Assembly (NCBI RefSeq): GCF_000024985.1
Contig: NC_013523.1
Location: 1,426,001-1,490,000, forward strand
Length of the DNA: 64,000 nt
Origin: Sphaerobacter thermophilus DSM 20745
GTDB taxonomy: Bacteria; Chloroflexota; Chloroflexia; Thermomicrobiales; Thermomicrobiaceae
Direction of reading: 5' to 3'
Shown: positions 20,124-24,895 of the stretch, one piece after another
Layout of the letters: each line of letters begins with the position of its first letter
Numbering within the stretch: position 1 is the first letter of the stretch
Made by a program: the position numbers and the translations under genes
Notes under the pieces: generated by a model
Told to the model about the DNA's origin: nothing
Seen by the model: the letters and a program-made list of their open reading frames with translations, nothing else
Database searches by the model: none

Positions 20124-21815
20124 ATGCTCACGGACATCGAGATCGCGAGTCAGGTCACGCCAAAGCCGATCACCGAGATCGCTGCCGACCTCGGCATCCA
20201 GCCGGACGAGCTGGAGTTGTACGGTCCCTACAAGGCCAAGATCAGCCTGTCGATCCGGGACCGCCTCAAGGATCGGCCGAACGGCAAATACGTGGTGGTA
20301 ACCGCCATCACCCCCACCCCGCTCGGCGAGGGGAAGACGACGGTCACCGTTGGGCTGGGCCAGGCGTTCGGCAAGATCGGCACTCGCGCGATCGTGGCGA
20401 TCCGGCAGCCGTCGCTCGGTCCCGTGTTCGGGATCAAGGGTGGCGCGGCCGGCGGCGGCTACAGCCAGATCATCCCGATGGAGGACTTCAACCTCCACCT
20501 GACCGGGGACTTCCACGCCGTAACCGCGGCCCATAACCTGTGCGCGGCCTTCCTCGACAACTCCATCTACCACGGCAACCCGCTCGACATCGACCAGACT
20601 GCCGTCCTTTGGCGGCGCGTGATGGACGTGAACGACCGGACCCTGCGAGACATCGTCATCGGCCTCGGGTCGGGCAACGGGATCCCGCGCCAGACCGGCT
20701 TCGACATCACGGCGGCTTCAGAGGTCATGGCGGTCCTGGCCCTGGCGACCGACTATCGCGACCTCCGCGAGCGGCTGGGACGGCTCGTCGTCGCGCTCAA
20801 CCGGAAGAAGGAGCCGGTGACCGCTGAGGACATCGGGGTGGCTGGCGCCATGGCCGCCCTGCTGAAGGACGCCCTCAAGCCGAACCTGCTCCAGACCCTC
20901 GAGCACACGCCCGCCATCGTCCATGCCGGCCCCTTCGGCAACATCGCCCACGGCAACTCGTCGGTGCTCGCTGACCTGATCGGTCTCAAGCTCGCCGACG
21001 TGGTGGTCACCGAGGCGGGCTTCGGCGCCGACCTCGGCTTCGAGAAGTTCTGCGACATCAAGTGCCGTGTCAGCGGACTCAAGCCCGATGCCGCAGTCCT
21101 GGTCGCGACCATCCGCGCCCTGAAGGCGCACAGTGGGCGCTATAAGATCGTGGCCGGCAAGCCGCTCGACCCCGGCCTCGTGACCGAGAACCTCGACGCG
21201 CTCCGTGAGGGAATCGGCAACCTCGAAAAGCAGATCGAGAACGTGCGCCGCTTCGGCGTGCCGGTGGTGGTGGCCATCAACCAGTTCCCGACCGACACCC
21301 CGGCGGAGATCGAGCTGGTGCGCGAGGTGGCGCTGAAGGCCGGGGCGTTCGATGCCGTGCCCACCCGGGTGCACAGCGAGGGCGGCGAGGGCGGCGCCGA
21401 CCTGGCTCGCGCGGTACTGCGTGCGACGGAAGAACCCAACTCCTTCCGCCCGCTCTACGAGCTGGACATGCCGCTCACCGACAAGATCGAAATCATCGCG
21501 CGCGAGCTCTACGGCGCCGGATCCGTCACCTACCAGCCCGCGGCTGCCCGGGCGCTGCGCACCTTTACCAGCATGGGTTACGACAAGCTCCCGGTGTGCA
21601 TGGCCAAGACGCACCTGTCCCTCAGCGGCGACCCGAACCTACGCGGGCGGCCTGAGGGCTTCGAGCTGACGGTGCGCGAGGCGCGCCTGTCGGCCGGGGC
21701 CGGTTTCATCTACCCCATCATCGGCGAGATGCGGACGATGCCCGGCCTTGGCAGCAAGCCCGGCGGGCTGAACGTCGACATCGACGACGACGGTACGATC
21801 CGGGGTCTGTTCTAG
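20124..21815 (+). CDS. fhs: Formate--tetrahydrofolate ligase
   Basis: Fhs makes 10-formyl-THF from formate, THF and ATP, supplying one-carbon units to purine synthesis. The 563-residue protein has the ATP-binding loop [16 protein letters not shown] and the conserved REPSLGP-equivalent [14 protein letters not shown], with full family length. The start at 20124 has GAGGGGAG upstream. With fchA and folD it forms a complete route from formate to methylene-THF; the 10-formyl-THF it produces feeds the purine pathway, whose genes lie at the left end of the window. Confidence 0.97.
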
Positions 21816-21825
21816 GCGACGGCGA

Positions 21826-21860
21826 CCGGGCGCGCGTCAGTCCATATCACGCGCGCCCGG
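21826..21860 (+). terminator. Terminator-like hairpin after fhs
   Basis: CCGGGCGCGCGT (21826-21837) and ACGCGCGCCCGG (21849-21860) form a perfect 12-bp stem with an 11-base loop, ten bases after the fhs stop. No U-tract follows. It sits just before the next open reading frame. Confidence 0.6.
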
Positions 21861-21895
21861 CCAGTCTCTACCGACGAGGGAGAGGATGCGACACA

Positions 21896-22180
21896 GTGGA
21901 TGAGACGGCGCGCGCCTTCCTGATCTGGGTGCCGGCAGGCACCTTGATCCCCTTCCTCATCAGCCGCCTCACCGGCGCCGACTGGCGCAGCGCCACGATC
22001 GAGGCCGCGCTCTTCGCAGCGCTGGGTCTACTCATCTACCCGACCCTCTTCGCCCTGATCGTCGTCCACATCGTCGGCTACCCCAACGTCGAGGCCCTCT
22101 TCCTCGCCGGATTCGCCCTCGCCGCGCTGACGGTCCTTGGCTACCGGCGCAGCATCGGTGGTGGCCGTCCCCGATACTGA
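21896..22180 (+). CDS. Small integral membrane protein, unknown function
   Basis: The 94-residue product has about three hydrophobic segments: residues 6-25 (AFLIWVPAGTLIPFLIS), 35-60 (ATIEAALFAALGLLIYPTLF onward) and 65-83 (ALFLAGFALAALTVLGY). The C-terminus is short and basic. Start is a GTG at 21896 with GAGGGAGAGG somewhat upstream. No family is recognised. It precedes the two DUF2382 stress genes, which have their own sigma-54-type promoters, so it may belong to the same stress locus or be the tail of the fhs transcript. Confidence 0.55.
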   Translation: MDETARAFLIWVPAGTLIPFLISRLTGADWRSATIEAALFAALGLLIYPTLFALIVVHIVGYPNVEALFLAGFALAALTVLGYRRSIGGGRPRY

Positions 22181-22230
22181 TCCCGGCTTCCCTCTCCCGC
22201 CGCCCCCTACCCGTGTCAGTTCTCCCCTCG

Positions 22231-22246
22231 TGGCACCGCCATTGCA
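22231..22246 (+). promoter_or_regulatory. Sigma-54 (-24/-12) promoter of the first DUF2382 gene
   Basis: TGGCAC (22231-22236), five bases, then TTGCA (22242-22246): the invariant GG and GC are exactly 10 bases apart, as the sigma-54 consensus requires. The predicted transcript starts near 22257, about 58 bases before the start codon. Confidence 0.7.
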
Positions 22247-22314
22247 CCCACCCCCCTGTCGGACGGCCCGGCGATCGGCCGGAGCAGCACCACACCAGCG
22301 GAAGTGAGCCCAAC

Positions 22315-23109
22315 ATGGCACGCAGCGATCGCCCCGCCCTCGTGGGCGTATTCACGGCCCCTGATCAGGCGGAGCGAGCAGTGGCAAACCTGTACGCAGC
22401 CGGCTTCGCGACCGACGAAGTTGGCATCATGCGGGGAAGCGACGCCCAGTCTAGCCCATCCCAGCAGACCGAGGCATCGGAAGAAGTTGCCCCCGGCACC
22501 ATCGCCGGCACGCTGGCCGGACTGGGTATCCCAGACGAGGAAGCGCAGTTCTACGAGGGAGAACTCAAGAGCGGCCGGACCATCGTCACCGTCCAGGGCG
22601 ACAAGCGCAGCGGCGATGCCCGCCGCATCCTTCGCCGCCACGGCGCCTACGACTGGACCGACCAGGAAACGTCGACACCTGAGGCCGGTGACGACGAGCG
22701 AACCATAGAGCTGCGCGAAGAGCGCCTGGTGCCCAGCGCGCAGTGGCGCGAGGCCGGCGAGGTCGTGGTCCGCCGCGTCGTCGAAGAGGTCCCGGCAAGC
22801 ATCGAACTCGATGCGACCCACGAGGAGATCGACCTCCAGCGAGTTCCCGTGGGCGAGGTCGTCGACGAGCGTCGCGACCCGTGGATGGAGGACGACGTAC
22901 TGGTCATCCCCGTCTACGAAGAGCAACTCGTCGTCAGCCGGCGGCTCGTCCTCAGAGAGCAACTACGTATCCGGCGACTCCGCGTCACCGAGCACAAGGT
23001 CTTTCAGGACACGCTGCGCCAGGAGCGGGTCGTCGTCGAAGACCCAAACCAGACCGGCCAGGTGCACGAGCGCTTCGTCGAGCCGGAGACCGGGATCGAG
23101 CAATCGTGA
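22315..23109 (+). CDS. General-stress protein with GSP17M-like N-domain and YsnF/DUF2382 C-domain
   Basis: The 264-residue protein begins with a domain like YflT/general stress protein 17M (ALVGVFTAPDQAERAV and AGFATDEVGIM, residues 8-40) and ends with a DUF2382 (YsnF/AvaK) domain, seen in ELREERLVPS, VVVRRVVEEVP, IDLQRVPVGEVVDER and VLVIPVYEEQLVV. The middle is acidic and Gln/Ser-rich. No signal or membrane segment is seen, so it should be cytosolic. DUF2382 proteins are associated with stress responses but have no known biochemical activity. ATG at 22315 is preceded by GGAAGTGAG. It carries its own sigma-54-type promoter. Confidence 0.8.
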   Translation: MARSDRPALVGVFTAPDQAERAVANLYAAGFATDEVGIMRGSDAQSSPSQQTEASEEVAPGTIAGTLAGLGIPDEEAQFYEGELKSGRTIVTVQGDKRSGDARRILRRHGAYDWTDQETSTPEAGDDERTIELREERLVPSAQWREAGEVVVRRVVEEVPASIELDATHEEIDLQRVPVGEVVDERRDPWMEDDVLVIPVYEEQLVVSRRLVLREQLRIRRLRVTEHKVFQDTLRQERVVVEDPNQTGQVHERFVEPETGIEQS

Positions 23110-23169
23110 CACGCGCACGCCCGCCGAAATCGCAGCCTCCACGAGCATATTTGCCTATTCGATGATAGT

Positions 23170-23185
23170 TGGCACAGAGCTTGCA
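23170..23185 (+). promoter_or_regulatory. Sigma-54 (-24/-12) promoter of the second DUF2382 gene
   Basis: TGGCAC (23170-23175), five bases, TTGCA (23181-23185), preceded by T and followed by T, matching the sigma-54 consensus with GG and GC 10 bases apart. The predicted start is near 23197, leaving a leader of about 130 bases. Confidence 0.72.
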
Positions 23186-23325
23186 TCATGCGGCGGTGTC
23201 GTGGGCGCTACCCGCGACACTGGAAGCAACCGGTTCGCGCGCGGGCGCGGACGACACGGAGTTCGTATGCCTCCGGCGTCAGCGGTGGCCCATCGGAGGC
23301 CGGAGAGTGGTCGGGGAGGTCAACC

Positions 23326-24156
23326 ATGGTACATGGCGACGAGACTCTGGACCCAGGTATGGGCGACATCGGTCACATCCAGCCTAGCCAGCTACAGAGG
23401 GGCTGGGATGTGTTTGGCTCCGAAGGCGACAAGATCGGTGACCTCGAAGAGGTACGCGACGAGTACATCATCGTCTCGCGGGGCTTCCTCTTCACGACCG
23501 AGCGCTTCATCCCCCTGTGGGCGGTCAGCACCGCCGGCGACGGGAAGGTCTTCCTGAACGTCACCAAGGATGAGATCGAGACCCGCGGCTGGGACAACGC
23601 CGAAGCAGTCGCGAGGAGCCGCCCGGCCGGCACCGGCGAGATGCGGGGCCGCGAGACCCGCGCGAGCCAAACCGACGAGATGCTCGGCCGGGAGACGCGA
23701 GCCGGCGACACAGGCGAGATGCTCGGCCGCGAAACCCGCACCAGCCCAACGGGCGAAACCGAGGAGCGGATGGAGATCCGCGAGGAAGAGCTCCGTACGC
23801 GGAAGCGCGAGGTCGAAGCCGGGGCGGTCGACGTCGAGCGCGAGGTCGTGACCGAGCGCGAGACTCGCGAGGTACCGGTGACTCGGGAAGAGGTGGATGT
23901 CGAGTACCGGCCGGTCGATTCGAAGCCCGCGACGCAGGGTGAGCTGAGCGAAGAAGAGATCCACGTGCCGATCCACGAAGAAGAGGTCACGGTCGACAAG
24001 GAGACCGTGGTCACTGGCGAGGTCGAAGTCCGGAAGCGTCAGGTTCAGGACACCGAGGAGATTTCCGAGGAGGTCCGCAAGGAGCGTCCACGGATCCGCG
24101 GCGAGGGCGATGTCAGCCTCGACGCCGAGGAGTCGCACGAGGAGCACCCGCACTAA
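23326..24156 (+). CDS. DUF2382 (YsnF/AvaK) stress protein with PRC-barrel-like N-domain
   Basis: The 276-residue protein starts with a PRC-barrel-like domain (GWDVFGSEGDKIGDLEEV, then FLFTTERFIPLWAV, residues 25-70), passes through three tandem 13-residue repeats with GRETRA cores (106-144), and ends in a highly charged DUF2382 domain with repeated VEREVVTERE and EEIHVPIHEEEVTV strands. It is strongly acidic, glutamate-rich and likely cytosolic. The start at 23326 has GGGGAGG upstream. PRC-barrel plus DUF2382 is a known architecture in GC-rich stress proteins; the function is unknown. Confidence 0.8.
   Translation: MVHGDETLDPGMGDIGHIQPSQLQRGWDVFGSEGDKIGDLEEVRDEYIIVSRGFLFTTERFIPLWAVSTAGDGKVFLNVTKDEIETRGWDNAEAVARSRPAGTGEMRGRETRASQTDEMLGRETRAGDTGEMLGRETRTSPTGETEERMEIREEELRTRKREVEAGAVDVEREVVTERETREVPVTREEVDVEYRPVDSKPATQGELSEEEIHVPIHEEEVTVDKETVVTGEVEVRKRQVQDTEEISEEVRKERPRIRGEGDVSLDAEESHEEHPH
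23641..23757 (+). repeat. Three tandem 39-bp repeats inside the DUF2382 gene
   Basis: Copies start at 23641, 23680 and 23719, each encoding 13 residues of the form M-(R/L)-GRETRA-xx-T-(D/G)-E. Copies differ mostly at third codon positions and in the two variable residues. They link the PRC-barrel-like and DUF2382 parts. Confidence 0.85.
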
Positions 24157-24192
24157 CGGATCCTCCGCTCTCCGCCGCGATCCTCTCCTCAT

Positions 24193-24216
24193 GCCCTGCC
24201 CCATCTGGGGCGGGGC
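24193..24216 (+). terminator. Intrinsic terminator of the DUF2382 genes
   Basis: GCCCTGCCCC (24193-24202), loop ATCT, GGGGCGGGGC (24207-24216), then TTTCGTTCT. One G-U pair in a 10-bp stem, with a T-rich tail 36 bases after the stop codon. Confidence 0.8.
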
Positions 24217-24247
24217 TTTCGTTCTATGACTCTGGCCAACGGCACCT

Positions 24248-24661
24248 CTACCGCTGGCCGACGAGCACTGCAGCCGCACGCACGGGCGGCTCGGAGGTGC
24301 TCCGCCCCTGGGGCTGTGCCCAGAACGCGGCGTACAACGACCCCATCGCCAACCCAAAGACGACCAGCCAGAGCACGCCCGACACACCTGGCCCACCGAT
24401 GAAGATGATCGGAATCATCCCGTGCAGCGCGATCCCAGCCATAAGCCCGGCTCGCCGCCAGCGTGGCAACCAGAACGCAACTACGAGGAATGCTTCGACC
24501 GCGATGGACAGCACCGCGAGCGGCATCAAGGCTCGCCAGTCGAACCAGGTGTCAGGCAGCACGAGCGGTCCGTACTCGCGACGCAGGTAGATCGCCAGCA
24601 CCCCGCCGGAGACGTAGACCAGGTTCGCACCGTCGGCGCCTCCGTCGAGACCGATCGACAT
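24248..24661 (-). CDS. Membrane protein resembling the C-terminal part of HTTM-domain proteins, possibly a remnant
   Basis: The 137-residue product has three or four hydrophobic segments (LMPLAVLSIAVEAFLVVAFW; LMAGIALHGMIPIIFIGG; VLWLVVFGLAMGSLYAAFW). The pattern of a helix ending in a Glu, WLPRWRRAG, and a helix with a His resembles the later helices of HTTM/vitamin-K-carboxylase-like proteins, which are normally 300 residues or more. No ribosome binding site precedes the start at 24661, and no upstream part is found in other frames. It may be a truncated gene. Weakly supported. Confidence 0.4.
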   Translation of the reverse strand: MSIGLDGGADGANLVYVSGGVLAIYLRREYGPLVLPDTWFDWRALMPLAVLSIAVEAFLVVAFWLPRWRRAGLMAGIALHGMIPIIFIGGPGVSGVLWLVVFGLAMGSLYAAFWAQPQGRSTSEPPVRAAAVLVGQR

Positions 24662-24821: not shown

Positions 24822-24895
24822 TGGCTGGGGAGCAGGGATTCGAACCCCAACTGGCTGATCCAGAGTCAGCTGTCCTACCGTTAGACGACTCCCCA
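24822..24895 (-). tRNA. tRNA-Gln (anticodon CTG)
   Basis: Complete cloverleaf: acceptor TGGGGAG with CTCCCCA, anticodon stem GCTGA/TCAGC around loop CTCTGGA (anticodon CTG, reads CAG), T-loop TTCGAAT. Discriminator G is followed by an encoded CCA (24822-24824). An intrinsic terminator follows. Confidence 0.97.

Follow-up and report, generated by a model that had tools for sequence, protein, structure and literature searches.

In sigma-54/NtrC-type systems the promoters carry a -24/-12 GG/GC core at fixed spacing, RpoN has three domains and the activator consists of a receiver, an AAA+ domain with GAFTGA and an HTH, all of which recur in the case of Sphaerobacter thermophilus described here, the HTH in a weak form. 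It differs from those systems in having one activator for the whole regulon and in its stress-type and small-RNA targets, in a member of the Chloroflexota. Helicobacter FlgR and Chlamydia CtcC are single sigma-54 activators without a DNA-binding domain, according to an excerpt of PMC3162934 (and, for FlgR, a title found via PMC3844500). The likeness lies in there being one activator per genome, whose DNA-recognition helix looks eroded here; however, the HTH is degenerate and not absent, and the targets are not flagellar. In the Rrp2-RpoN-RpoS pathway of Borrelia, too, an adaptive response is headed by a response-regulator activator and RpoN (PMC2940757 and PMC3320556), whereas here the stress genes bear sigma-54 promoters directly and no downstream RpoS step is seen. 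The kinds of target also overlap with those of the Bacillus subtilis SigB regulon, which includes YsnF. The overlap covers YsnF/DUF2382, YflT and general-stress dehydrogenases, although SigB is a sigma-70-type factor with partner switching and the present system has sigma-54 with an ATPase activator. YsnF itself figures in SigB-regulon papers.

It may be noted that sigma-54 was already recorded in some Chloroflexi in 2011 (PMC3162934). The original prediction took the factor to be uncommon in this phylum, which does not hold, a match being found in 92 of 300 sampled phylum genomes. The literature that we searched, which holds few subscription papers, gave no report of a sigma-54 regulon in Chloroflexota or of sigma-54 control of DUF2382; the domain is scarcely mentioned there, and nothing joins Sphaerobacter thermophilus with sigma-54. 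We consider it very probable that the two elements described below are real sigma-54 promoters in a small order-wide stress-type regulon, opened by the only enhancer-binding protein of the genome. The sequence basis of this reading covers site identity, spacing, conservation, co-occurrence of the sites with rpoN and with the activator, and their loss where rpoN is missing. Sigma-54 would thereby have a definite role in Chloroflexota, and DUF2382, whose function is unknown, would be tied to a testable regulator.

The two -24/-12 elements and their DUF2382 genes

The window, i.e. the whole 64-kb stretch of DNA analysed, has the following features in the region of interest.

22231..22246, + strand: putative sigma-54 promoter TGGCAC-CGCCA-TTGCA of the first DUF2382 gene, exact match
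22257, + strand: predicted transcript start of the first gene, placed 12 bases past the C of the -12 GC
22315..23109, + strand: DUF2382 protein of 264 aa with a weak N-terminal YflT-like domain (PF09557, E 1.3e-21)
23170..23185, + strand: putative sigma-54 promoter TGGCAC-AGAGC-TTGCA of the second DUF2382 gene, exact match
23196/23197, + strand: predicted transcript start of the second gene, from promoter geometry
23197..23325, + strand: predicted 5' leader of the second gene, ~130 nt, with good conservation in the sister species
23326..24156, + strand: DUF2382 protein of 276 aa with an N-terminal PRC-barrel-like DUF2171 domain (PF09557, E 7.2e-25)
24193..24216, + strand: intrinsic-terminator-like hairpin 3' of the second gene

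As had been claimed, TGGCAC-N5-TTGCA occurs exactly at both places, with GG (22232-33 and 23171-72) and GC (22244-45 and 23183-84) 10 bases apart in both elements, and no third exact copy is present within the window. The accompanying claim that such a pair is improbable by chance stands as well, as shuffles of the window gave a mean of 0.01 and none of 100 held two copies. On alignment with the sister species (G001, of the same genus), the spacer of the first element is CACCA with the fixed bases intact, and that of the second is altered to AGGGC with the element kept. The elements lie 84 nt (22231) and 156 nt (23170) 5' of the probable start codons, and the transcript starts estimated earlier, 22257 and 23197, agree with the promoter geometry read from the letters. 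A search of 21800-24300 for a sigma-70-type promoter found none. The identity of both elements as sigma-54 promoters is strongly supported at the sequence level, and both would be expected to drive transcription.

The DUF2382 assignment of the downstream genes was borne out by the PF09557 matches given above, and a profile search found these two DUF2382 genes only in the genome. The first protein also matches PF11181 (E 9.8e-4, below cut-off) and the second PF09939 (E 3.6e-5, just short of cut-off). The probable starts are ATG 22315, which aligns with the start in the sister species, and ATG 23326, which lies behind GGGGAGGT and is identical there; with these starts, the leaders would be ~58 nt and ~130 nt long. 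ATG 23188 was rejected as the start of the second gene, being missing from the sister species. Similarly, a structured leader of the second gene was considered and set aside, the stretch being conserved but unremarkable in folding stability (z -0.7). A tRNA-Gln (CTG) is located downstream of the stress genes (window 24822-24895, minus strand).

RpoN and a single NtrC-type activator

For comparison, 41 genomes (24 rpoN+ and 17 rpoN-) were used, i.e. the own genome (G000; 3,993,764 bases in two contigs) and 40 relatives. The original prediction hinged on the presence of rpoN and of sigma-54-dependent activators, and the genome encodes both. It has a single complete RpoN, with activator-interacting (AID), core-binding (CBD) and DNA-binding (DBD) domains and the RpoN box ARRTVAKYRA. 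A PF00158 search of the genome gave seven matches, one strong (E 1.5e-75) and six weak (E of at least 1e-8). The strong match is an NtrC-type response regulator made up of a receiver (PF00072, E 1.5e-27), an AAA+ domain (E 8.9e-75) with GAFTGA and a weak Fis-type HTH (PF02954, 21.6 bits against the curated cut-off of 22; E 1.8e-4). An orthologue is present in 23 of the 24 rpoN+ genomes as against none of the 17 rpoN- genomes. The orthologues are full-length and 57-98% identical (two rows are fragments, and in one genome the orthologue is split across two contigs); all 21 that were aligned contain the G(A/S)FTGA motif, and none of the aligned orthologues lacks the Asp of (M/L)D. There is one activator per genome, the next matches below the full-length orthologues being receiver-only. 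Its gene is near rpoN in four genomes, with aroKB-type genes also nearby, and no candidate for a cognate kinase was recognised beside it among the flanking frames, which were judged by eye without Pfam. In G022 an exact sigma-54 site lies ahead of rpoN itself (L143:2038-2053), which suggests autoregulation of rpoN in that genome.

In the proposed mechanism, RpoN-RNA polymerase would wait at TGGCAC-N5-TTGC promoters of DUF2382, GlsB-type, YflT-like, ferritin-like and PRC-barrel genes and of two small-RNA candidates. The opener would be this orphan response regulator, with its phospho-acceptor Asp and intact GAFTGA loop; the stress signal would reach it as phosphorylation by an unlinked kinase, and the response would be general-stress-like. 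As to how the regulator finds its promoters, the mean pairwise identity among orthologues is 0.33 for the recognition helix, 0.60 for the receiver and 0.77 for the AAA+ domain, i.e. the helix is the least conserved of the parts measured. Also, no dyad or 8-mer is common to most of eight upstream regions. Because of these two observations, we infer that the activator can largely or wholly dispense with a specific enhancer; promoter specificity is superfluous where a genome has one activator only, which may therefore act from solution, by analogy with Helicobacter FlgR. A classical NtrC-like activator binding specific enhancer DNA, at sites that we missed, has a serious chance, if somewhat short of even, of being the correct description: the Fis-type HTH remnant is still recognisable, and the GlsB sigma-54 site (L017:6674 upstream region) is preceded, at a distance of 42 nt, by a perfect dyad GGTCATGATGACC (GGTCAT-G-ATGACC) that is kept in the sister species. 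The poor conservation of the helix relative to the AAA+ domain and the want of a shared upstream motif argue against it, and this dyad is not seen at the other promoters.

Targets and distribution of the exact sites

The genome-wide search for the same element that had been proposed gave 8 exact sites, where ~1.3 are expected from base composition and the reversed pattern gave 0. Six of them stand before protein genes, namely the two DUF2382 genes, one YflT-like gene, one GlsB/Transgly_assoc gene and those of a hydroxyacid dehydrogenase and a secreted beta-helix/Ig-domain protein; the remaining two precede stretches devoid of a protein gene. Genes with an exact site ahead of them in other genera encode ferritin-like (three cases), PRC-barrel (two) and DUF2171 (two) proteins, HU, DoxX, a short-chain dehydrogenase with DUF2795, GlsB and, in G022, RpoN. 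DUF2382 occurs in 13 genomes, all of them rpoN+. Of the 24 DUF2382 genes that belong to other genera, 11 show a sense-strand site (at least 9 of 11 matches with the GG/GC core), as against 0.55 expected; some DUF2382 genes of rpoN+ relatives are without a recognisable one. Similarly, a sigma-54-like site stands before 11 of the 18 GlsB genes of rpoN+ genomes and before none of the 12 that rpoN- genomes carry. The idea of a new stress regulon with an enhancer-binding ATPase is therefore supported across the 41 genomes, in a form wider than the DUF2382 genes, since it takes in GlsB, YflT-like, ferritin-like and PRC-barrel proteins and the two small-RNA candidates. The whole regulon can be read from sequence because of its one-sigma, one-activator design.

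Real sigma-54 promoters of a regulon that serves mainly the cell envelope, nitrogen or carbon, and not stress, would fit a proposal of sigma-54 as controller of the bacterial exterior (title of PMC3162934), and we regard this as unlikely while giving it some weight. The targets do include a secreted beta-helix/Ig-like protein, BrkB-type and DoxX membrane proteins, and GlgX-like and acetyl-CoA synthetase genes, GlsB is itself a membrane protein, and the hydroxyacid dehydrogenase, the secreted beta-helix/Ig-domain protein, acetyl-CoA synthetase and GreA are not obviously stress genes. Yet the targets that recur across genera are DUF2382, GlsB, ferritin-like, PRC-barrel/DUF2171 and YflT-like proteins, several of these families being counted among the general stress proteins of Bacillus or E. 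coli, and no nitrogen-assimilation gene is among the targets scanned. The exact site near greA lies 158 nt 5' of that gene in the sister species (L109:1037-1052).

Returning to the stress-type regulon, all 8 exact sites recur in the sister species, with spacer bases changed in three. On varying the spacer in six rpoN+ genomes, 8 sites were found for N3, 6 for N4, 54 for N5, 5 for N6 and 2 for N7. Over the 41 genomes, the ratio of exact sites to reversed control is 94:32 in rpoN+ and 12:37 in rpoN- genomes (Fisher p 1.6e-9, with genomes treated as independent though related). As the genomes are kin, Fisher values overstate the independent evidence, and the rpoN losses behind the rpoN- genomes may be few. 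The relatives without rpoN amount to a natural deletion experiment. One-mismatch sites in the own genome are not in excess (51 as against 75 in the reversed control), so that only near-perfect sites are to be trusted, and one-mismatch sites were rejected as additional targets, being at or below background. This missing excess would suit chance matches, with the DUF2382 genes driven by a sigma-A or ECF promoter, but the exact sites are enriched, spacer-specific, conserved despite spacer-base changes and tied to rpoN presence, which together with the failure to find a sigma-70-like promoter around the two genes makes chance most improbable.

Small-RNA candidates at the gene-less sites

The two sites without a protein gene probably precede small RNAs.

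G000:C2:80756-80954 (L189, L019), - strand: sRNA1, conserved non-coding RNA candidate with an upstream sigma-54 site and a terminator
G000:C2:1247483-1247603 (L021), - strand: sRNA2, candidate conserved RNA of ~90 nt with a sigma-54 site upstream

Both stretches are near-identical in G000 and the sister species, have terminator-like hairpins at their ends and are much more stably folded than shuffles (z -5.6 and -6.1); an Rfam search found no family match for either at E<=1. sRNA1 has an invariant CCCAATCCCTTCCCTTCCCTTG, a C-rich loop and its own TTGACA/TATAAT-like (sigma-A-like) promoter. An exact search of genome contigs for CCCAATCCCTTCCCTTCCCTTG returned Thermomicrobiaceae-type records only, the near relatives that carry sRNA1 being Sphaerobacter, Thermomicrobium, Thermalbibacter and Thermomicrobiaceae. 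It is present in members of the Sphaerobacter family both with and without rpoN, and the upstream TGGCAC site, in tandem with the sigma-A-like promoter, is found in 7 of 7 aligned rpoN+ members and 0 of 8 aligned rpoN- members. sRNA2 was found in seven rpoN+ family members, six of which have the TGGCAC site upstream (in G002 the contig starts just before a decayed TCGCAC), and gave no clear match in rpoN- members. An open frame over sRNA2 was rejected as a protein, as in the sister species a 1-base indel right after the conserved block puts it out of frame. Ribosome-binding sites would be fitting pairing partners for the UUCACCU of sRNA2 and for the C-rich stretch of sRNA1. A family-wide sRNA with tandem sigma-54 and sigma-A promoters would be a new starting point for work on RNA regulation in Chloroflexota.

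Tentatively, and with somewhat less than even confidence, the system may be a general stress response that extends over a whole order of Chloroflexota and in which sigma-54 replaces a SigB/RpoS-type factor. One phospho-activated ATPase, without specific enhancers, would serve all promoters at once; two regulatory RNAs would be included, one of which would gain extra output from a sigma-54 promoter on the upstream side of its housekeeping promoter, and the whole promoter set would decay upon loss of rpoN. Among other RNA elements, a T-box leader-like element (L018:9213-9488; 85.5 bits, a little short of the gathering score, 93) precedes a long open frame resembling an aminoacyl-tRNA synthetase.
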